From positions 186,001 through 250,000 of the forward strand of contig JASCNX010000005.1 of assembly GCA_029968055.1 (NCBI GenBank): a stretch of DNA of 64,000 bases. The letters are read 5' to 3'. Positions within the stretch are counted from its first letter, which is position 1. The number at the start of each line of letters is the position of its first letter. The position numbers and the translations under genes were made by a program. Below are positions 26,223-37,240 of the stretch, piece by piece. Origin of the DNA: Xenophilus aerolatus (GTDB taxonomy: Bacteria; Pseudomonadota; Gammaproteobacteria; Burkholderiales; Burkholderiaceae_C). Below the pieces are notes generated by a model. It worked only from the letters and a program-made list of their open reading frames with translations. It made no database searches and was not told the origin of the DNA.

Positions 26223-26651
26223 TCAGTCGATGCGTTCGAAGACGATGTCCTGGGCGCCTTCCCACAGTACCTTCACGCCCAGGGCACGCAGGTTCTCCTT
26301 GCCTTCCACGATCGTCAGGAAGTGGTTGCCCGCGAGCTGGCCCATCTTGCTGGCGAAGCTGCAGGCGCCGTAGGCCATGATGATCTCGGTCTCGCTGTAG
26401 CCGCCGGGATAGAAAAGGATGTCGCCCACCGAGGGGTGGCTGGTGTGGTTCTCGAAGCCCACCGGCTGGCCGCCGAGTTCGAGCTTCCACTCGCCCAGCG
26501 GCACCCAGCAGCCTTCGCCGCTCCAGCGCACGTGGATGATCTTCTGCCGGTAGGGCAGCAGGGTGAGGAAGGCTTCGACCGTCTTGGGCGCGTCGGGATG
26601 CGTTTCGGCGATGAAGCTGTGGCCGGCGGCCAGGATTCGGATGCGGGTCAT
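26223..26651 (-). CDS. DUF3830 family protein (cyclophilin-like fold)
   Basis: A 142-residue protein recognised as DUF3830 by TVEAFLTLLPYRQKIIHVRWSGEGCWVPLG and HPSVGDILFYPGGYSETEIIMAYGACSFASKMGQLAGNHFLTI. The fold is expected to be a cyclophilin-like barrel that may bind a small ligand; no catalytic function is established. It is the last gene of the leftward arm of the LacI-controlled cluster, nine bases downstream of the ABC ATPase gene. Such genes often accompany transporters and cyclic amidases, and here it does so again. Cytoplasmic, no signal peptide. Confidence 0.78.
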   Translation of the reverse strand: MTRIRILAAGHSFIAETHPDAPKTVEAFLTLLPYRQKIIHVRWSGEGCWVPLGEWKLELGGQPVGFENHTSHPSVGDILFYPGGYSETEIIMAYGACSFASKMGQLAGNHFLTIVEGKENLRALGVKVLWEGAQDIVFERID

Positions 26652-26659
26652 GGAAGGGA

Positions 26660-27442
<783 letters not shown>

Positions 27443-27459: not shown

Positions 27460-28356
27460 TCAGGAAGACGAGGGGAGGGTGGCGCTCAGGCCCAGCTCGG
27501 CCACGATGCGGCGGGCCGTGGCATGGCCTTCGGCATCCAGCGGCAGGCGCGGCGGGCGCGGGCTGCCCACCGGCAGGCCCATCGCCGCGAGCAGCGCCTT
27601 GGTGCCCGCCACGTACGACTGGCCGGCCACGAAGTCGATCATGGGGAAGTGGCGAAAGGCGATCTCGCGGGCCTCCACGAAGCGGCCCGCCTGCACGAGG
27701 TCGTGGATGCGCGCCATCTCGCCCGGCGCACCGTTGGAGGGCACGGCGGCCCAGCCCACGGCGCCCTCGACGTAGGACTCGTAGCCCATGATCCCGCCGA
27801 ACACGTTCATGCGGCCGTCGGTCAGGCGCACGATGTCGCGCACGCGCGTCACTTCCAGCGTCGACTCCTTGATGTAGCGGCAGTTGTCGATCTCCGACAA
27901 CCGGGCCACCAGCGGCGGGCGCAGGTCGATGTTGGTCACGGCCGGGTTGTTGTAGACCATGATCGGGATGCCGATCGCGTCCGAGATGGCGCGGTAGTGC
28001 GCCAGCACCTCGGCGTCGGTGGGCGTGCAGTAGAAGGGCGGCAGCACCATCACCCCGTCGGCACCCAGCGCCTCGACCTGGCGGCTGCGGCGGACGGCCA
28101 CGCGCGTGTCCTCGGCCGTGGTGCCGATGAGCACGGGCACGCGGCCCGCCGCGCGGCGGATCACGGTGGCCGCGACCTGCTCGAACTCCTCGTCGCTCAG
28201 CGACAGGAACTCGCCGGTGGAGCCCAGCGGGATGAGTCCGTGGATGCCGGCCTCGATCTGCCAGTCCACATAGCGCTCCAGCGTGGGGAGGTCCACCGCG
28301 CCTTCGGCGTCGAAGGGCGTGACCATGATGGTGTAGGTGCCGCGGAAGGTCTTCAT
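27460..28356 (-). CDS. DapA-family lyase/aldolase, canonical active site
   Basis: A 298-residue class I aldolase-fold enzyme of the dihydrodipicolinate synthase/N-acetylneuraminate lyase superfamily. The active-site set is intact: PLGSTGEF, Tyr135 in PIMVYNNP and Schiff-base Lys163 in RYIKEST. Members cleave or form C-C bonds of 2-oxo acids or dehydrate them. GGGA at 9 bases fixes the ATG at 28356. It lies 14 bases downstream of a diverged paralogue and upstream of the ABC ATPase. DapA for lysine synthesis is unlikely in this catabolic context. The substrate is unknown. Confidence 0.9.
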
Positions 28357-28370
28357 GTCGTGGCGTCCCT

Positions 28371-29303
28371 TCATGCGGCCAGCAGGCCTGCGGCGACGAG
28401 GGCGGCGTGGATGCGCGTCGTCTCCGCATCGTCCAGCGGCAGCAGGGGCGGGCGCGGCGCCGCGTGGGGCAGGCGGCCCAGCAGCTTCAGGGCGGTCTTC
28501 ATGCGGTTATGGATGTCGACGCCCGGGGCACGGTAGAAGGCGCGGCACAGCGGCACCAGGCGCGCATTCGCCTCGCGTGCCTTGGCCAGGTCGCCGGCGG
28601 CCATCGCCTCGTGCAGCGCGACGAGCAGGGGCGCCGCCACGCTGCCCAGCCCCGACAGGATGCCGTCGCCGCCATAGGCCAGCGAGGCCATGAGCCAGCC
28701 GTTGTTGCTGGTGAGCATCGACACCGGGCGCGGCAGGCCGCGCAGCACGGCCAGCACGTCTTCGTAGAGCTCGGGCGAATCGCTGCCGTCCTTCACGCCG
28801 ACGATCTGCGGCACCTCCTCGCACAGGCGCTGCATCAGCGCCGGCGCGAAGGCCTGGCCCGAGGCGCGCGAGAGCTGGAACAGAACGATCGGCAGGTCGC
28901 TCGCCGCCGCCACGTCGGCCACGAAGCGGCGAACCATGTCCGGCCGCAGCGCGGCGCCGTTGGCGAAGAGCGCAGGCGGGAAGAGCAGCAGGCCGCTCGC
29001 ACCAGCGGCGGCGGCGTCGCGGGCCAGCCGGCAGGCATCGCGCGGGTCTTCCGCCACCACGCCGGCCACCACGGGCACATCGCCGGCCGCCTCGGCCGCC
29101 AGCGCGATCACCTCGCTGCGTTCGGCGGCGTCGAGCGAGCTCGTCTCGCCGGCATGGCCGTTGACGACGACGGCGTGCACGCCGCGCGTGCCGGCCACGT
29201 CCGCGATATGCGCGCGCACAGCGGCGGCATCGACGTCGCCGTCAGGCGTGAAAGGGGTGAGGGTGGCGGGCCAGACGCCGCCGCCGGAGAGATGCAAGGC
29301 CAT
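28371..29303 (-). CDS. DapA-family lyase, diverged paralogue
   Basis: A 310-residue DapA-superfamily protein. Schiff-base Lys171 is present in IVGVKDGSD, but the catalytic Tyr position is Phe142 ([12 protein letters not shown]) and the usual GTTGE loop reads GHAGE ([12 protein letters not shown]). The proton relay therefore differs from that of the neighbour and the reaction may differ as well. It is the first gene of the leftward arm; its ATG at 29303 lies 44 bases from the first LacI-type operator. The extension to 29351 overlaps the operator and was not used. Confidence 0.87.
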
Positions 29304-29346
29304 GTCGATCCACGGGTCGAAGAAGGGAAGCAGTATGAGACATTTC

Positions 29347-29366
29347 TGCAATCGATTGCAATCAAT
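29347..29366. promoter_or_regulatory. LacI-type operator O1
   Basis: TGCAATCGATTGCAATCAAT; the first 14 bases are a perfect palindrome with the central CG typical of LacI/GalR operators. It lies immediately upstream of the leftward DapA-like gene and is identical over 20 bases to the site at 29435-29454. Confidence 0.88.
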
Positions 29367-29434
29367 CTCGGATTATTCCGACGGAGATGTCATGGAATTG
29401 CAAAACTAGGTTGGATGGAGCTAGGATACGAGAA

Positions 29435-29454
29435 TGCAATCGATTGCAATCAAT
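29435..29454. promoter_or_regulatory. LacI-type operator O2
   Basis: An exact 20-base copy of the site at 29347, in the same orientation, 88 bases away (about eight helical turns) and 33 bases before the lacI-family start. Two in-phase sites suit repression of both arms through DNA looping, including autorepression. Confidence 0.88.
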
Positions 29455-29486
29455 GCCCGATTTTGGGGCGCTCACGGAGATGCACC

Positions 29487-30497
29487 ATGGCGGTGACATT
29501 GCGCGACGTCGCGCGTGCCGCCGACGTGTCCGTGGCCACGGCCTCCCGGGCCCTCGCGGGCTCCAGCCTGATCAACCACGTGACGCAGCGCCACGTGGTG
29601 CAGGTCGCGGCGGCGCTGGGCTACCGCACCAACACCTTCGCCCGCGCGCTCAAAACCAAGAGCTCGCGCCTGGTCGGCCTCACGGTCCACAACCTCGACA
29701 ACGCCTCCTTCCAGGTGCTGGCCTCGGTGGTCCAGGCGCGCGTGCAGGCCGCGGGCTACCAGGTCATCCTCAGCATCAGCGGCGACGACGCGGCGCAGGA
29801 GAAGGAGATCCTGCGCACGCTGGTCGACCACGGTGTCGACGGCCTGATCGCCGTGCCCACGGGCGCCAACGGCGCACAGCTGCTGGCCATGGAGCACGCC
29901 GAGATCCCGGTGATCTGCGCGGTGCGCCGGGTCGAAGGCGCCTCGCTCGAATCGGTGCTGGCCGGCGACCTCGACGGCGCTTACAACGGCACCCGCCACC
30001 TGCTGGGGCTGGGGCACCGGCGCATCGGGCTGATCGTCGGCCCCGGCGAGACCACCTCCGGCAAGGAGCGCCTGGCGGGCTACCGCCGTGCCTTGCAGGA
30101 AGCGGGCCTGCCCATCGACCCGGCCCTCGTCCAGACCGGCCGCTACCTGCCGGCTACCGGCGTCGCCGCGGCCAACGCTTTGCTGTCGCTGCCCGAGCCG
30201 CCGACGGCGCTGTTCGTCGCCAACCACGAGTCCTCGGTCGGCGTGCTGCGCGTGATCGCCGAGCGCGGCATCTCGGTGCCGCAGGACCTGTCGCTGCTCT
30301 TCTACGAAGACTCGCCCTGGTTCGAGTGGCAGCGCCCGGCCATCAGCGTGGTGGACAGCGGCGCGGCCGAGATGGCCAACCTCGCCGTCGACCGCCTGAT
30401 GCAGCGCTTGGGCGGCGTGGCCAACAGCGGCCGCGAATACCGCGTGGGCTCGCGCCTGATCGAGCGCGCGTCCTGCCTGAACCTCTCCAACCCCTGA
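29487..30497 (+). CDS. LacI-family repressor of the divergent catabolic cluster
   Basis: A 336-residue LacI/GalR regulator. The helix-turn-helix and hinge are TLRDVARAADVSVATASRAL with NHVTQRHVVQVAAALGYRTN and the minor-groove helix around ARALKTKSS; the rest is a sugar-binding-like effector domain (GLTVHNLDNASFQVLASVVQ, GHRRIGLIVGPGETTSGKERLAGY). GGAG lies 8 bases ahead of the ATG. It heads the rightward arm, and two identical operators lie between it and the leftward arm. The ligand is probably the imported substrate or an intermediate of the pathway. Confidence 0.94.
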   Translation: MAVTLRDVARAADVSVATASRALAGSSLINHVTQRHVVQVAAALGYRTNTFARALKTKSSRLVGLTVHNLDNASFQVLASVVQARVQAAGYQVILSISGDDAAQEKEILRTLVDHGVDGLIAVPTGANGAQLLAMEHAEIPVICAVRRVEGASLESVLAGDLDGAYNGTRHLLGLGHRRIGLIVGPGETTSGKERLAGYRRALQEAGLPIDPALVQTGRYLPATGVAAANALLSLPEPPTALFVANHESSVGVLRVIAERGISVPQDLSLLFYEDSPWFEWQRPAISVVDSGAAEMANLAVDRLMQRLGGVANSGREYRVGSRLIERASCLNLSNP

Positions 30498-30502
30498 ACC
30501 GC

Positions 30503-30895
30503 ATGCCCTACGTCGAAATCCTGGCGCCCCGCGCCGACAGCTCCCGCAAACGAGAACTCGCCGGCGTCGTGACGCGCGGCATCGTCGACGGCTTCGGCGT
30601 CGCGCCGTCCACCGTCACCATCTACTTCCAGCCCATCGAGCCCGCCGACTATGCGCACGAGGGCGAACTGGGCCAGCCCGACGCCGGCTCGCGCGTGTTC
30701 GTGAAAGTGCATGCCTACCGCCGCACCCCGGACGAGCGGCGCGCCGTCGCCGAGGCCGTCACGCCGGCCCTGGCCGCCTGCTTCGACACCACCGGCCACA
30801 ACGTGGCGGTGTACTTCCTCGACCGCGAGCGCGACGAGGTCGCGCACGACGGCCACCTCGCCAGCGACGAACTGGCCGCCCACCCCGCCGCCTGA
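30503..30895 (+). CDS. Tautomerase-superfamily protein, two fused 4-OT-like halves
   Basis: A 130-residue protein. The N-terminal half starts MPYVEILAPRADSSRKRELAGVV, placing the catalytic Pro at position 2, which becomes the N-terminus after Met removal, followed by a helix and TVTIYFQPIEPADY. The second half (VFVKVHAYRRTPDERRAVAEAVTPALAACF, NVAVYFLDRERDE) repeats the strand-helix-strand plan without an N-terminal Pro. It therefore looks like a fused-dimer tautomerase, a group with isomerase, dehalogenase or hydratase activities. It lies 5 bases after lacI and 7 before the acyl-CoA dehydrogenase. Confidence 0.78.
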   Translation: MPYVEILAPRADSSRKRELAGVVTRGIVDGFGVAPSTVTIYFQPIEPADYAHEGELGQPDAGSRVFVKVHAYRRTPDERRAVAEAVTPALAACFDTTGHNVAVYFLDRERDEVAHDGHLASDELAAHPAA

Positions 30896-30902
30896 GCCCG
30901 AC

Positions 30903-32045
30903 ATGAGCCACTTCTACACCGAAGACCAGATCTCCCTGCGCGACACCGCGCGCCGCTTTGCCGAGGCCGAGGTGCTGCCGCGCGCCGCCGCCATCGACCG
31001 CGAGGACGCCTTCGACCGCACCCTCTACCGCGGCATGGCCGAACTGGGCCTGTTCGGCACCAGCCTGCCCGAGGTCGCCGGCGGCTCGGGCTTCGACACC
31101 GTCGGCACCTGCCTCGTGATGGAAGAGCTGGCGCGCTGCTCGGGCGCCATCGGCAACGCCTTCGCGATCCCGGTCGAGGCGGCGCTCTTCCTGCACCACC
31201 ACGGCAACGAGAGCCAGAAGGCGCTCATCCCCGGCATCCTCGACGGCTCGATCCTCATGGCCACGGCCATGACCGAGCCCGACTACGGTTCGGACACGGC
31301 GAGCATCACCACTTCGGCCCGGCGCACGGCCGACGGCTGGGTCATCAACGGCACCAAGGCCTGGGTCACGCTGGGCGGCGTGGCCGACCGCATCATGGTC
31401 TTCGCACGCACCGGCAAGGACGCGGGCCACAAGGGCATCAGCTGCTTCATGGTCGATGCGCGCCAGCGGGGCGTGAGCCGCGGCAAGAACGAAGAGTTGC
31501 TCGGCATGCACGGCCTGGAGGACTGCCAGATCATCCTCGAGGACGTGCTCGTGCCCGAAGAGGCCATGATCGGCGCCGAGAACACGGCCTTCAAGACGGC
31601 CATGGGCAACTTCAACTTCAGCCGGCTGCTGATGTCGTCCATGGCCCTGGGCATGGCGCAGGCCGCGATGGAGGATGCCGTGGCCTACGCCACCACGCGC
31701 AAGCAGTTCGGCGGCCCGATCATGGGCTTCCAGGCCATCCAGTTCATGGTGGCCGACATGTCCACCGACATCGCCGCCGCGCGGCTGCTGATCCATCATG
31801 CCGCGCGCCTGTACGACGCCGGCCAGCCCTACGCCAAGGAAGCCGCGCACGCCAAGCTCTTCACCACCGACATGGCGATGAAGCACGTGTCGAACGCGTT
31901 GCAGATCCACGGCGGCAACGGCTACTCGCGCGATTACCGCATCGAGCGCCTGTTCCGCGACGTGCGCCTGGCGCAGATCTACGAAGGCACCAACCAGATC
32001 CAGCGCGTGATCATCGCGCGCCAGGTCGAGAAAGAACTGGCCTGA
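30903..32045 (+). CDS. Acyl-CoA dehydrogenase
   Basis: A 380-residue FAD-dependent acyl-CoA dehydrogenase that introduces an alpha-beta double bond into an acyl-CoA thioester. Family blocks are ATAMTEPDYGSDTASITTSA, NGTKAWVTLGG and the C-terminal QIHGGNGYSRDYRIERLFRDVRLAQIYEGTNQIQR. The Glu of YEGTNQIQ is the position used as catalytic base in short- and medium-chain members. It is followed by a CoA-transferase and a MaoC hydratase, giving the activation-oxidation-hydration order of a beta-oxidation-like route. The electron acceptor would be ETF, not encoded here. Confidence 0.95.
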   Translation: MSHFYTEDQISLRDTARRFAEAEVLPRAAAIDREDAFDRTLYRGMAELGLFGTSLPEVAGGSGFDTVGTCLVMEELARCSGAIGNAFAIPVEAALFLHHHGNESQKALIPGILDGSILMATAMTEPDYGSDTASITTSARRTADGWVINGTKAWVTLGGVADRIMVFARTGKDAGHKGISCFMVDARQRGVSRGKNEELLGMHGLEDCQIILEDVLVPEEAMIGAENTAFKTAMGNFNFSRLLMSSMALGMAQAAMEDAVAYATTRKQFGGPIMGFQAIQFMVADMSTDIAAARLLIHHAARLYDAGQPYAKEAAHAKLFTTDMAMKHVSNALQIHGGNGYSRDYRIERLFRDVRLAQIYEGTNQIQRVIIARQVEKELA

Positions 32046-32056
32046 GGGAGCGCGCC

Positions 32057-33664
32057 ATGATCAGTTGCATCACGGCCGACGAGGCCGCAGCCCTCATCCG
32101 CGATGGCGACTTCGTCATCACCGGCGGCAACGGCGGCTCGGGCGTGCCCGAGGCGCTGTTCGAAGCCGTCGAACGCCGCTTCCTCGCCGGGCAGGGGCCG
32201 CAGGCCATCACGCTGTTCCACATCACCGGCGTGGGCGCGCTGACCGAGAAGGGCCTGTGCCGCTTCGCGCACCCGGGCCTGGTGAAGCGCGTCATCGGCG
32301 GCAACTTCGGCATGCAGCTCCCGTTCATCCAGATGATCGTGAACAACGAGCTCGAGGCGTACAACTTCCCCCAGGGCGTGATGACGCACCTGTGCCGCGC
32401 GATGGCCGGCCGCCAGCCCGGCATCCTCACGCACGTAGGCCTGGGCACCTACATGGACCCGGAACAGGACGGCGGCCGCATGAACGCGCGCACCACCGAG
32501 CCGCTGGTCGAGCGCGTGCGCGTGGCCGGCGCCGACTACCTGTTCTACCGCGCCCCGGGCGTGCCCACGGTGGCGCTTATCCGCGGTACCTCGGTCGACG
32601 AGGACGGCTACGTGAGCATGGAGCACGAGGCCACCGCGCGCGAGGACCTGTCGATGGCGCAGGCCGTGCACAACGCCGGCGGCACGGTGATCTGCCAGGT
32701 CAAGCGCCGCGTGCGCCGCGGCACGCTGCACCCGCACATGGTGAAGATCCCCGGCTTCCTGATCGACCACGTGGTGGTCGAGCCCGAGCAGCTGCAGACC
32801 TACACCACGCGCTACGACCCGGCCCGCTGCGGCGAGACGCGCCTGCCCGCGTCGGGCATCGCGCCCGACCCGCTGGATGCGCGCCGCGTCATCGCGCGCC
32901 GCGCCGCCTTCGAGCTGCGCCCGGGCGACGTGGTGAACCTGGGCGTCGGCATTTCGGCCATGATCCCCAACGTCGCTGCGGAAGAGGGCATCGACGAGCT
33001 CATCACGCTCACGGTGGAATCGGGCGTGGTAGGTGGTGTGCCGGGACATGCGCGCGAATTCGGCACGGCGGTGAATCCGCGCGTCATCCTCGACCAGGGC
33101 TACCAGTTCGACTTCTACGACGGCGGGGGCCTGAGCTGTGCCTTTCTCTCGTTCGCCGAGGTCGACGCCGAAGGCAACGTCAACGTGACGCGCTTCGGCC
33201 GCCGCTACGACGGCGCGGGCGGCTTCATCAACATCACGCAGAACACCCGCCGGCTGGTGTTCAGCGGCTCGCTCACCGGCGGCGACGCCGACGTGCGGGT
33301 GGAGGGCGGCGAGCTCGCGATCCACCGCGACGGCAAGTTCCGCAAGTTCGTGCCGGCCGTGGGGCAGATCAGCTTCTCGGGAAAGCTGGCGCGCGAGCGC
33401 GGCCAGCAGGTGAGCTTCGTCACCGACCGCGCGGTTTTCGAGCTCGAGGCCGACGGCATCGTGCTGACCGAGATCGCACCGGGCGCGCGCCTGAAGGAGG
33501 ACGTGCTCGACCACATCGGCTTCAAGGTCCGCGTGAGCGAATCGCTCAGGACGATGGACGCGCGCATCTTCCGCGCCGGCCCGATGGGCCTGCACGATGC
33601 CTTCGTCGCGCAGCCGCCGCGCCATGTCGCGCGCGATGCGGATCAGCAGGAGGCGGCACGATGA
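32057..33664 (+). CDS. Fused-subunit class I acyl-CoA transferase
   Basis: A 535-residue CoA-transferase with both catalytic halves in one chain, resembling propionate/acetoacetate CoA-transferases. The N-terminal half has FVITGGNGGSGVPEALFEAVE, the C-terminal half GDVVNLGVGISAMIPNVAAEEG and the catalytic Glu321 in TVESGVVGGVPG, which forms a glutamyl-CoA intermediate. It would activate the carboxylic acid left after ring opening by the cyclic amidase, using acetyl-CoA or another donor. GGAG lies 9 bases ahead of the ATG. The stop overlaps the MaoC start as ATGA. Confidence 0.93.
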   Translation: MISCITADEAAALIRDGDFVITGGNGGSGVPEALFEAVERRFLAGQGPQAITLFHITGVGALTEKGLCRFAHPGLVKRVIGGNFGMQLPFIQMIVNNELEAYNFPQGVMTHLCRAMAGRQPGILTHVGLGTYMDPEQDGGRMNARTTEPLVERVRVAGADYLFYRAPGVPTVALIRGTSVDEDGYVSMEHEATAREDLSMAQAVHNAGGTVICQVKRRVRRGTLHPHMVKIPGFLIDHVVVEPEQLQTYTTRYDPARCGETRLPASGIAPDPLDARRVIARRAAFELRPGDVVNLGVGISAMIPNVAAEEGIDELITLTVESGVVGGVPGHAREFGTAVNPRVILDQGYQFDFYDGGGLSCAFLSFAEVDAEGNVNVTRFGRRYDGAGGFINITQNTRRLVFSGSLTGGDADVRVEGGELAIHRDGKFRKFVPAVGQISFSGKLARERGQQVSFVTDRAVFELEADGIVLTEIAPGARLKEDVLDHIGFKVRVSESLRTMDARIFRAGPMGLHDAFVAQPPRHVARDADQQEAAR

Positions 33665-34128
33665 GCGCGTCGAAGGAACTCTGGTTCGAGGACGTGGTGG
33701 TCGGCACCGAAATGCACAGCGACGCGCACACCGTCAGTGCAGAGGCCATCGCACAGTTCTGCGACCTCACGCAGGACCACCATCCGCTGCACACCGATGC
33801 GGCCTATGCGAAGTCGCGCGGCTTTCCGGGCGTCATCGCCCATGGCCTGTTCGGCCTCTCGCTCATGGAGGGCCTGAAGACCGCGATGGGCCTCTACGAG
33901 AACAGTTCCATCGCCTCGCTCGGCTGGGACGACGTTCGCTTCGTGCGGCCCGTGGTCGCCGGCGACGAGGTGCATGTGAGCTTCCGGGTCGTCGACAAGC
34001 GTCTGTCGTCCAAGGGTGGGCGCGGCGTGGTGACCGAGGCCTTGCAGCTCGTGAACCAGCGCGGCGAATGCGTTATCGAGGCCCGGCATGCGGCGCTCGT
34101 CGCGTGCCGCAACGACGCAGTGCATTGA
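33661..34128 (+). CDS. MaoC-family enoyl-CoA hydratase
   Basis: A 155-residue hot-dog-fold hydratase. The hydratase-2 motif is clear: LTQDHHPLHTDAAYAKSRGFPGVIAHGL with catalytic Asp and His. It would hydrate the enoyl-CoA made by the upstream dehydrogenase. GWDDVRFVRPVVAGDEVHV is a second conserved block. The start overlaps the CoA-transferase stop by four bases. It is followed by an unusual pyrimidine-rich gap before the transporter genes. Confidence 0.92.
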   Translation: MSASKELWFEDVVVGTEMHSDAHTVSAEAIAQFCDLTQDHHPLHTDAAYAKSRGFPGVIAHGLFGLSLMEGLKTAMGLYENSSIASLGWDDVRFVRPVVAGDEVHVSFRVVDKRLSSKGGRGVVTEALQLVNQRGECVIEARHAALVACRNDAVH

Positions 34129-34218: not shown

Positions 34219-35061
34219 ATGAAACACACTTACCTCATCGCCGGCCTCGTGCTCGGCGCCGCTGCCACCCTTCCCGCCTTCGCGCAAAGCTGCACGCCCA
34301 AGGTCGCGGCCGATCAACTGGTCACGCCCGGCAAGCTGCAGATGTCGATCAACCCCACGCTGCCCCCCCAGCAGTTCGTCGACGAGAAGGGCGAGCTGCA
34401 GGGCCTGAACGTCGAGCTCGGCAAGGCCGTGGCCAAGAAGCTGTGCCTGGAGCCCGTCTTCATCCGCATGGACATGCCGCCCATGATTCCTGCCATGCAG
34501 GCCGGCCGCTTCGACCTCATCAACACCGGCATGTTCTGGACCGAGCAACGTTCCAAGCTCATGTTCATGATTCCCTACGGCCAGCAGGCCATGAGCATCT
34601 ACACCGTGCCCACGAGCAAGCTGAAGATCACCAAGTTCGAAGACCTCGCGGGCCACGTGGTGGGCATCGAGACCGGCACCTACCAGGAACGCAAGGCGCG
34701 CGAGTACAACGCCGCCATGGTCGCCAAGGGCGAGAAGACCATCGACTTCCGCACCTTCGCCACGGCGTCGGAAACGACCGCGGCCCTGCGCGCCGGCCAG
34801 CTCGAGGCGGGCATCAACATCGACGAGACCGCCAAGGCCTTCGAAGAGCGAGGCATCGCCAAGATCTGGCTGAGCGGCATCAACGGCACCGACATCACGC
34901 TGGCCTTCCGCACCAAGGGCGCGGCCGACGCGGCGGCCAAGGCGCTGGACGAGCTGAAGGCCGAGGGCGTCTACGACCAGCTCTTCGACAAGTTCAAGAT
35001 GACGCGCCTGAAGGACGTCAAGAACTTTGCCATCCGCGGCACCGGCCCGGCACCCAAGTAA
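34219..35061 (+). CDS. Periplasmic amino-acid-type ABC substrate-binding protein
   Basis: A 280-residue family 3 solute-binding protein. MKHTYLIAGLVLGAAATLPAFAQS is a Sec signal peptide. The mature protein begins with LVTPGKLQMSINPTLPPQQFVDEKGELQGLNVELGKAVA, and the ligand-binding second lobe includes VGIETGTYQERKAREYN and AGINIDETAKAFEERG. Ligands of this family are polar amino acids or similar small polar molecules. It is followed after 18 bases by its permease and then by the cyclic amidase, so the ligand is probably the amidase substrate. Confidence 0.93.
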   Translation: MKHTYLIAGLVLGAAATLPAFAQSCTPKVAADQLVTPGKLQMSINPTLPPQQFVDEKGELQGLNVELGKAVAKKLCLEPVFIRMDMPPMIPAMQAGRFDLINTGMFWTEQRSKLMFMIPYGQQAMSIYTVPTSKLKITKFEDLAGHVVGIETGTYQERKAREYNAAMVAKGEKTIDFRTFATASETTAALRAGQLEAGINIDETAKAFEERGIAKIWLSGINGTDITLAFRTKGAADAAAKALDELKAEGVYDQLFDKFKMTRLKDVKNFAIRGTGPAPK

Positions 35062-35079
35062 GCATCCCGAGGACCGGCC

Positions 35080-35790
35080 GTGTTCAACGTCGACGCATTC
35101 CTGTCGTACCTGGTCAACCCGTACCTGCTGGGCGGCGTCGGCATCACGATCGGCCTGACGGTCGCCACCATCGCCATCGGCCTGGTGCTGGCCCTGCCGC
35201 TGGCGCTGGGCAGCATGTCGAGCAACCGGCTGTTCAACGCGCCGGCACGCTTTTACGTGTGGGTGTTCCGCGGCACGCCGCTGCTGGTGCAGCTGGTCAT
35301 CATCTACACCGGCCTGCCGCAGCTGGGCATCCGGCTGGACGTGCTCACCTCGGCGGTGCTGGCGTTGAGCCTCAACGAGGCCGCTTACCTGTCGGAGACC
35401 ATCCGCGCCGGCTTCTCGGCGGTCGCCAAGGGCCAGGTCGAGGCGGCCAAGGCGCTGAGCCTGTCGCGCGTGGCGACGCTGCGCCTGGTCACGCTGCCGC
35501 AGGTGATCCGCATCATCATCCCGCCGCTGGGCAACTCGGTGAACGGGCTGCTGAAGGCGACCTCGCTCGCGTCGGTGATCTCGATGGAAGAGCTCATGCG
35601 CCGCAGCCAGGTGCTGATGCAGATGAAGTTCGAGGTGCTCGAGCTCTACTGCGTGGCGGCCTGCTACTACCTCGTGCTCACGACGCTCTGGAACCTCGTG
35701 CAGGTGCGCCTCGAGCGCCACTACGGCAAGGGCTATGCGCCTCGCAGCAGCAAGAAGGCTCCGATTCCCCGCGTCGCGATGGCGCGCTGA
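35080..35790 (+). CDS. Polar amino acid ABC transporter permease
   Basis: A 236-residue HisM/GlnP-type permease with about five membrane segments. The coupling EAA-loop is visible as AAKALSLSRVATLRLVTLPQVIRIIIPPLGN. RGTPLLVQLVIIYTGLPQLGI is a typical early conserved segment. The start codon is GTG at 35080 with GAGGA upstream. It lies directly after the binding protein gene; the ATPase is presumably the one at 26660, in the opposite arm. Only one permease is present, so it would work as a homodimer. Confidence 0.93.
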   Translation: MFNVDAFLSYLVNPYLLGGVGITIGLTVATIAIGLVLALPLALGSMSSNRLFNAPARFYVWVFRGTPLLVQLVIIYTGLPQLGIRLDVLTSAVLALSLNEAAYLSETIRAGFSAVAKGQVEAAKALSLSRVATLRLVTLPQVIRIIIPPLGNSVNGLLKATSLASVISMEELMRRSQVLMQMKFEVLELYCVAACYYLVLTTLWNLVQVRLERHYGKGYAPRSSKKAPIPRVAMAR

Positions 35791-35806
35791 CCCCGACCGC
35801 AGACCC

Positions 35807-37240
35807 ATGGCCGACTTCGACCTCGTCATCCGCAACGCGCAGGCCGTGACGGCCAGCGACATCTTCCACTGCGACATCGGCGTGCGCGACGGCCGCGTGG
35901 TGCAGCTCGGGCTGGGCCTGGGTGCCGGCACGCACGAGATCGATGCGGCCGGCCGCGCCGTGACGCCCGGCGGCGTCGACACGCACTGCCACCTCGACCA
36001 GCCGCAGGCGCCGCCCGTGGTGTCGGCCGACGACTTCCTCACCGGTTCGCGCTCGGCGGCCTGCGGCGGCACCACCACGGTGATCCCGTTCGCGGCCCAG
36101 CACAAGGGCCAGTCGCTGCGCGAGGCGGTGGACGACTACCACCGCCGCGCGAACGGCAAGTCGTGCATCGACTATGCCTTCCACCTCATCGTGAGCGACC
36201 CCACGCCGACGGTGCTGAAGGAGGAACTGCCGGCCCTGATCGCCGAGGGCTACACGTCGTTCAAGATCTACATGACCTACGACGACATGAAGCTGGACGA
36301 CCGGCAGATCCTCGAGGTGCTGGACGTGGCACGCAGCCATGGCGCCATGGCCATGATCCACGCCGAGAACTCCGACTGCATCGCCTGGCTGACCGGCCGG
36401 CTGCAGGCCGCGGGCAAGACGGCGCCGCGCTACCACGCGCACGCCCGGCCGCTGCTGGTGGAGCGCGAGGCCACGCACCGCGCGATCGCGCTGTCGGAGC
36501 TGGTCGACGTGCCGATCCTCATCGTGCACGTGTCGGGCCGCGAGGCGGTCGAGCAGATCCGCTGGGGGCGGGCGCATGGGCTGCAGGTCTTCGCCGAGAC
36601 CTGCCCGCAGTACCTCTTCCTGACCGCCGAGGACCTGGGCATCGACGACAGCTACGAGGGCGCCAAGTGCGTCTGCAGCCCGCCGCCGCGCGACAAGGCC
36701 AACCAGCAGGTGATCTGGGACGGCCTGGCCGACGGGCTGTTCACCGTGATCTCGTCCGACCACGCCCCCTACAACTTCGAGGGCGAGGGCGGCAAGCATC
36801 CGGCCGGCGAGGAGGTGCCCTTCAACCACATCCCCAACGGCATTCCCGGCATCGAGACCCGCATGGCGCTGCTGTGGTCCGAGGGCGTGCTGGGCGGGCG
36901 CATCACGCCGCAGAAGTTCGTGGAGCTGACGGCGACCAACCCCGCCAAGGCCTACGGGCTGCATCCGCGCAAGGGCACCATCGCCGTGGGCGGCGATGCC
37001 GACCTGGTCATCTGGGACGAGCGCGAGCTGGTGCTGACCAACGGCATGCTCCACCACGCCGTCGACTACACGCCCTACGAGGGCATGCGCCTGGCCGCCT
37101 GGCCCGGCACGACCATCGCGCGCGGGCAGGTGGTGTGGGACGGCACGCGCTACCTCGGGCAGGCCGGCCAGGGCCGGTTCCTGCCCTGCGGCCTGCCCAC
37201 GCTGCTGCCCGCACGGCGCGAGATGGCCGCCGGTCGCTGA
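35807..37240 (+). CDS. Dihydropyrimidinase/hydantoinase-like cyclic amidase
   Basis: A 477-residue amidohydrolase. Metal ligands are DTHCHLDQP, the carbamylated Lys in FKIYMTYDDMK, HAEN, HVSG and the catalytic Asp in SSDHAPYN. PGGVDTHCHL, ACGGTTTVIPFA and CSPPPRDKANQ mark it as dihydropyrimidinase-type, which opens hydantoins, dihydropyrimidines or cyclic imides. No N-carbamoylase or beta-ureidopropionase is nearby; instead the operon carries CoA chemistry, so the ring-opened product may be a dicarboxylic half-amide rather than a carbamoyl amino acid. That is inference. It ends the rightward arm. Confidence 0.92.
   Translation: MADFDLVIRNAQAVTASDIFHCDIGVRDGRVVQLGLGLGAGTHEIDAAGRAVTPGGVDTHCHLDQPQAPPVVSADDFLTGSRSAACGGTTTVIPFAAQHKGQSLREAVDDYHRRANGKSCIDYAFHLIVSDPTPTVLKEELPALIAEGYTSFKIYMTYDDMKLDDRQILEVLDVARSHGAMAMIHAENSDCIAWLTGRLQAAGKTAPRYHAHARPLLVEREATHRAIALSELVDVPILIVHVSGREAVEQIRWGRAHGLQVFAETCPQYLFLTAEDLGIDDSYEGAKCVCSPPPRDKANQQVIWDGLADGLFTVISSDHAPYNFEGEGGKHPAGEEVPFNHIPNGIPGIETRMALLWSEGVLGGRITPQKFVELTATNPAKAYGLHPRKGTIAVGGDADLVIWDERELVLTNGMLHHAVDYTPYEGMRLAAWPGTTIARGQVVWDGTRYLGQAGQGRFLPCGLPTLLPARREMAAGR

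Follow-up and report, generated by a model that had tools for sequence, protein, structure and literature searches.

The window, by which we mean the whole 64-kb stretch of Xenophilus aerolatus DNA analysed here (GC 70%), holds two gene groups that diverge from a common intergenic region. The leftward group begins with two DHDPS-family genes, the rightward group with a gene for a LacI-family repressor, and the DNA between them carries the 20-mer TGCAATCGATTGCAATCAAT twice. The features are as follows.

26223..26651, minus strand: DUF3830 gene, the last of the leftward operon
26660..27442, minus strand: ABC transporter ATPase gene, polar-amino-acid type
27460..28374, minus strand: DHDPS-family gene 2, overlapping gene 1 by 4 bp
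28371..29303, minus strand: DHDPS-family gene 1 (PF00701), the first of the leftward operon, with its start, ATG 29303, placed from relatives
29332..29337, minus strand: predicted leftward -10 (CATACT), 18 bp from the -35
29347..29360, no strand: putative operator 1, an exact palindrome TGCAATCGATTGCA overlapping the predicted leftward -35 and spacer
29356..29361, minus strand: predicted leftward -35 (TTGCAA), inside operator 1 and one base beyond it
29398..29403, plus strand: predicted lacI -35 (TTGCAA)
29422..29427, plus strand: predicted lacI -10 (TAGGAT), 18 bp from the -35
29435..29448, no strand: putative operator 2, an exact palindrome TGCAATCGATTGCA on the predicted lacI transcription start
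29487..30497, plus strand: lacI-family repressor gene, 336 aa, the first of the rightward unit (Pfam LacI HTH and Peripla_BP_3)
30503..34128, plus strand: tautomerase, acyl-CoA dehydrogenase, CoA-transferase and MaoC genes, downstream of lacI and separated by gaps of -4 to 11 bp
34219..37240, plus strand: ABC substrate-binding protein, permease and dihydropyrimidinase/hydantoinase genes, 90 bp after the preceding gene group

Xanthine dehydrogenase genes come next, after a 219-bp gap. When gene order was compared with four relatives (L069-L072, 20 kb each, counting only matches above 38% identity), the two DHDPS genes, the ATPase, lacI, the tautomerase, the acyl-CoA dehydrogenase, the CoA-transferase, MaoC, the substrate-binding protein and the permease kept their order in all four; a close hydantoinase homologue stood beside the permease in two of the four, DUF3830 was found in two, and the xanthine dehydrogenase genes in one. 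A literature search for this gene set found no account of it. The longest open reading frame of the first leftward gene starts at TTG 29351, which falls inside operator 1, and it is only for this start that the operator abuts the leftward gene, as an earlier note on this DNA had it. Because the DHDPS proteins of the relatives align from ATG 29303, a stop codon lies two or three codons upstream of this ATG in four loci (three distinct sequences), and the distance between the ATG and operator 1 varies among relatives by single bases and not by multiples of 3, we place the real start at ATG 29303, 43 bp from operator 1.

The 20-mer stands at 29347-29366 and 29435-29454 in the same orientation, with a start-to-start distance of 88 bp, just as the earlier note had it; no third place was found in the 64-kb window with up to 3 mismatches allowed, and none of 100 dinucleotide shuffles of the window contained two matches. 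The perfect 14-bp palindrome with central CG that the earlier note had seen in each copy is TGCAATCGATTGCA, and its exact copies in the genome (5,117,920 bases, 11 contigs) number two, both at the twin-site locus. A scan of the genome found no other copy of the palindrome in the 5.12 Mb, either exact or at one mismatch; at two mismatches there are ten places, and none for the reversed control pattern. We also observed a 9-bp direct repeat, ACGGAGATG, at 29381-29389 and 29474-29482, downstream of each operator at a similar distance; the second copy occupies the position expected of the lacI ribosome-binding site, and the first precedes a 5-codon open reading frame, ATGGAATTGCAAAACTAG.

To follow the sites through relatives, we compared 24 loci (window included), which give 18 distinct upstream regions. 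The LacI orthologues came from a genome-contig scan (20 loci, 11 of them at 83-98% identity) and from whole genomes: of 399 sampled from the family, 5 have one (own included), as do 12 of the 101 genomes of the genus to which G347 belongs, a single one (the own) of 399 sampled from the order, and 6 of 15 in the own genus (own included). The comparison omitted nine distant LacI homologues (L016-L024, 25-33% identity) which were judged non-orthologous and for whose loci no TGNAANCGNTTNCA site was printed, as well as second copies of loci already included (L025-L028); L073 and L074 entered only the comparison of leftward starts and the reading of recognition residues. In every one of the 18 distinct regions the same lacI is preceded by both palindromes, which constitutes a phylogenetic footprint at orthologous loci, and only one operator 1 has a single mismatch to the TGNAANCGNTTNCA core. 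The same DHDPS-family gene is on the far side in 17 of the 18 regions, the 18th ending too early to tell; counted by loci, it is there in 21 of the 23 relatives, the remaining two being L012 and L037, which have a common upstream sequence and stop short of the gene.

What the relatives keep is TGNAAWCGWTTNCA, the palindrome with an A/T edge, which is the usual shape for the LacI family. The two 20-mers are identical in this genome, as described earlier; their 6-nt tail (ATCAAT), however, varies among relatives, and the 20 bp as a whole are not the operator that is kept. Within the 18 sequences the core positions are invariant or nearly so: the central CG and the A at NT-4 are present at both sites in all 18, and NT-6 is G in all of them except for one G-to-A change in one sequence. 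The palindrome also varies at NT-2 (A/T) and, in one half of each site, at NT-5. Among named organisms, Xenophilus and other Comamonadaceae have the closest relatives of the lacI gene. A search of plasmids gave one, CP099604.1, and a search of viral contigs gave none. In one Comamonadaceae strain, lacI lies at 167638-168633 of G465:C2, which agrees with CP099604.1 in length and position; the cluster with both operators thus appears to be carried on a 290-kb plasmid, and it may therefore move.

The promoters are predicted solely from the conservation of the hexamers, which were read from the same 18 sequences. For lacI, the -35 keeps a fixed position relative to operator 2 and reads TTGCAA here and in four other sequences and TTGACN in 13 of 18, while the -10 has its first T and its last T in 18 of 18 and its A in 17 of 18, TANNNT being found in 17 of 18. 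On the leftward side, TTGCAA is kept in 18 of 18, and CATACT at the given distance in 17 of 18. The lacI -10 ends 7 bp before the palindrome, so that operator 2 would cover the expected start point. Each of the proposed hexamers matches the consensus at 4 of 6 positions in the window; a consensus scanner found no sigma-70-like promoter in 29250-29520, and a terminator scan returned nothing.

The 336-residue protein belongs to the LacI/GalR family by its matches to PF00356 (42.4 bits, cut-off 27) and PF13377 (114.4 bits, cut-off 26.5). It fits none of the named NCBIfam subfamilies of LacI regulators (RbsR, PurR, GalR, CcpA and others), since none of the 18 NCBIfam models that matched reached its curated cut-off, the best score being 187 bits against a cut-off of 550. 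Its residues 3-327 align to residues 4-326 of the 360-residue LacI chain and it ends 9 residues later; the 26 LacI rows read are 336-340 aa long. The tetramerisation helix of LacI lies at about residues 340-357, and the protein here ends before this C-terminal helix, on which the LacI-type tetramer loop depends. A single-sequence structure prediction had a mean pLDDT of 38.8 and was left unused. The recognition helix reads V15 A16 T A S R20 (GalR numbering), with V or I at 15, A at 16 and R at 20 in 26 of 26 rows, some of which come from one genome. According to the family code, as given in the part of PMC2978694 consulted, R20 pairs with G at NT-6 and residues 15 and 16 pair with NT-5/NT-4; the combination of R20 and G at NT-6 found here agrees with this code, which was built on a TVSR group, whereas the helix here has TASR.

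From these comparisons, we consider it highly probable that the twin sites serve as operators for the LacI-family repressor encoded next to them, in a divergent operon pair that is under local control and autoregulated. The form of the motif, the neighbouring LacI/GalR gene and the retention of both sites in every distinct region sustain the earlier description of LacI-type operators in a divergent promoter. In a survey of 1303 regulators, 1251 had even palindromes, 1173 of these with a central CG as at both sites here, and 72% of the surveyed LacI-family regulators autoregulate (PMC4052901). It counts against this assignment that TGNAANCGNTTNCA, the loose consensus of the family, shows no enrichment in the genome (5 places, compared with 9 for the reversed control) and that the scanner calls no promoter at the proposed hexamers. 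The two sites, the degree to which they are conserved and the promoter-like hexamers kept beside them are direct observations; from them we infer binding by this LacI, repression rather than activation, and induction. Without inducer, one repressor dimer would sit on each palindrome. The dimer on operator 2 would cover the transcription start of the rightward unit (lacI, tautomerase, acyl-CoA dehydrogenase, CoA-transferase, MaoC and transporter genes), and the dimer on operator 1 would cover the -35 of the leftward unit (two DHDPS-family genes, ABC ATPase and DUF3830). A small molecule from the substrate or the pathway would then free the repressor, so that both operons would be switched on together and more repressor would be made. 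Two independently bound dimers would be enough for this; a loop between them is possible, and not needed. The locus is thus an ordinary, well-conserved LacI-family autoregulated divergent pair of an already known type. A literature search for the palindrome as a printed motif gave matches on other subjects only, and no account of it was found.

The regulator might also act through a GalR-like loop, in which the dimers on the two operators are in contact and hold both promoters in a loop of 88-90 bp, HU perhaps bending the spacer, which is richer in AT; we regard this as possible and doubtful. The spacing is 88, 89 or 90 bp in 17 of the 18 distinct regions (inner spacer of 36, 37 or 38 nt), though the inner spacer is nearly randomised, with a mean identity of 0.51 as against 0.46 when shuffled (153 pairs), and the sole exception, the sequence of L012 and L037, has 101 bp (inner spacer of 49 nt) and holds a tandem 12-bp repeat, which is close to one added turn. 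The spacer has a GC content of 0.33-0.47 in a window of 70% GC, and GalR itself loops at 113 bp with HU, its dimers touching directly (PMC4693257). Such a constant spacer resembles selection on length; however, the lacI leader, which has no need of phasing, is as constant within one group, with 25 nt in 11 of 11 Variovorax/plasmid-type sequences (L012 left out), even where the identity of a pair falls below 0.5 (15 of 15 such pairs). Rare indels may therefore explain the constant spacer too, and the leader control does not separate the two explanations. This control is imperfect, because the leader is somewhat less randomised than the spacer (0.58, compared with 0.44 shuffled, in 55 pairs) and because its length in the full set of 18 sequences is either 25 or 37 nt, a step larger than most in the spacer. 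The independent changes of spacing length are few, the protein lacks the C-terminal tetramerisation helix, and a dimeric LacI mutant does not loop (PMC4693257).

The helical phase can be read in both directions. A distance of 88 bp corresponds to 8.38, 8.04, 7.94 and 7.59 turns at 10.5, 10.95, 11.08 and 11.6 bp per turn, respectively, the last three values being in-vivo fits for lac loops (PMC1762422), so that two of these fits (8.0 and 7.9 turns) favour the loop and the values at 10.5 and 11.6 bp per turn (8.4 and 7.6 turns) speak against it. The earlier suggestion that the spacing is close to eight helical turns and would suit looping holds at about 11 bp per turn, and does not at 10.5. The natural lac spacing is about 92 bp, which is some 0.36 turn away from 88 at 11 bp per turn. 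According to PMC1762422, repression has a strong peak at the natural spacing, a point against the loop here; about 92 bp is named there for another experiment. DNA looping between the operators is thus possible, a well-marked but unproven chance. In its most ambitious version, a GalR-like dimer that has no tetramerisation helix would keep both divergent catabolic operons in a single loop of 88-90 bp, and selection would have preserved the helical phase across several genera while the inner DNA was randomised, with about one added turn as the only large change; this seems to us rather unlikely.

Alternatively, a LacI paralogue that shares the motif, for example one facing an intradiol-type dioxygenase gene, could control the sites, alone or together with this regulator, which would give cross-regulation. 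In the own genome, TGSAAWCGWTTRCA matched four further places at one mismatch (the reversed control had 3 matches). A looser search, confined to the window, returned two further places at two mismatches, which is within chance (8 of 100 shuffles reached the same total). Two of these near matches, L042 and L045, adjoin other lacI genes; at L004 and L044 the six query proteins had no match within 3 kb. L042 (own C4:326297-326310) is a single perfect palindrome, TGTAATCGATTACA, 28 bp before the start codon of a third LacI paralogue, and a gene judged by eye to encode an ABC substrate-binding protein lies downstream of that paralogue; a palindrome of the same form before another lacI is as expected of local operators. 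At L045 (own C3:27842), and at L064-L066 and L068 in relatives, a different LacI paralogue faces an intradiol-type dioxygenase gene, and its operators are almost identical to the twin sites. We also noticed two identical TGCAATAAATTGCA palindromes 5.7 kb apart (own C7:169691 and C7:175382), two mismatches from the operator.

Across 15 genomes (10 of the 12 lacI-bearing ones from the genus of G347, leaving aside G425 and G495, and 5 of the own genus), TGSAAWCGWTTDCA occurred at 34 places, with 0 for the reversed control in all 15. The operator pair beside this lacI accounts for 26 of the 34 and is present in 13 of the 13 genomes that have the gene, while the other two genomes, which lack the gene, show a single site apiece and no such pair. 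Five of the eight extra sites were read (those of G400, G430 and G446 are outside the five), and four of them are TGCAAWCGWTTGCA-type sites between the other lacI and a dioxygenase gene; at the G482 site, PF00775 and PF04444 dioxygenase domains and a LacI-family protein were confirmed, the other sites being judged by eye, and the G320 site precedes an apparent sugar ABC binding protein gene. These sites, together with L045, favour control by the paralogue, whereas the constant association of both operators with this lacI and the difference in recognition residues (V/I15 A16 here, V15 S16 or F15 S16 in the paralogue) speak against it, and we consider it improbable. Cross-talk between the dioxygenase-facing paralogue and the regulator of the twin sites is nonetheless possible. 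The regulon signature that the earlier note had proposed is a limited one: nothing but this divergent pair carries the motif in the own genome, yet other lacI paralogues have similar sites, and a match to the motif does not by itself point to this regulator. As judged from the scans, the regulon looks local and the motif is common to the paralogues.

A chance repeat or a recently duplicated leader with no regulatory role, which the 9-bp repeat after each site at a similar distance might suggest for this genome, is very improbable, since none of the 18 distinct regions has lost either palindrome while the ACGGAGATG pair and the 20-mer tail are not kept in relatives, and since shuffles gave no second 20-mer.

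The local autoregulated pair resembles known systems in several respects. E. coli lac has an operator on the transcription start and a second operator about 90 bp away, an arrangement like the one here; LacI has a tetramerisation helix, which the present regulator lacks, and unlike those of lac, the sites here are identical palindromes, each on its own predicted promoter. E. coli GalR has the recognition residues V15 A16 R20, the same as found here, and is likewise a dimer without a tetramerisation helix. While gal has two promoters of one operon, the present locus has two divergent operons, with a spacing of 88-90 bp and a loop that is only a candidate. As here, there are two operators at gal, and they are able to cooperate at 113 bp (PMC4693257). 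The local LacI/GalR regulons described by Ravcheev et al. 2014 (PMC4052901) share the even CG-centred palindromes and autoregulation, and they likewise include more than one site in divergent regions and local control of neighbouring operons; their inter-site distances peak at 13, 22 and 32 bp, in contrast to 88-90 bp here. The terms ‘Comamonadaceae’ and ‘dihydrodipicolinate’ are absent from the searched text of that paper, supplements aside.

The general view of how LacI-family regulators work is unchanged by this locus. It provides a defined predicted operator for a member of the LacI family outside the named NCBIfam subfamilies, and the natural spacing series (88, 89, 90 and 101 bp) could be used for testing short-loop models of dimeric repressors. 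For the Comamonadaceae, it would offer a local regulon, compact and open to testing, that governs a catabolic cluster so far uncharacterised.
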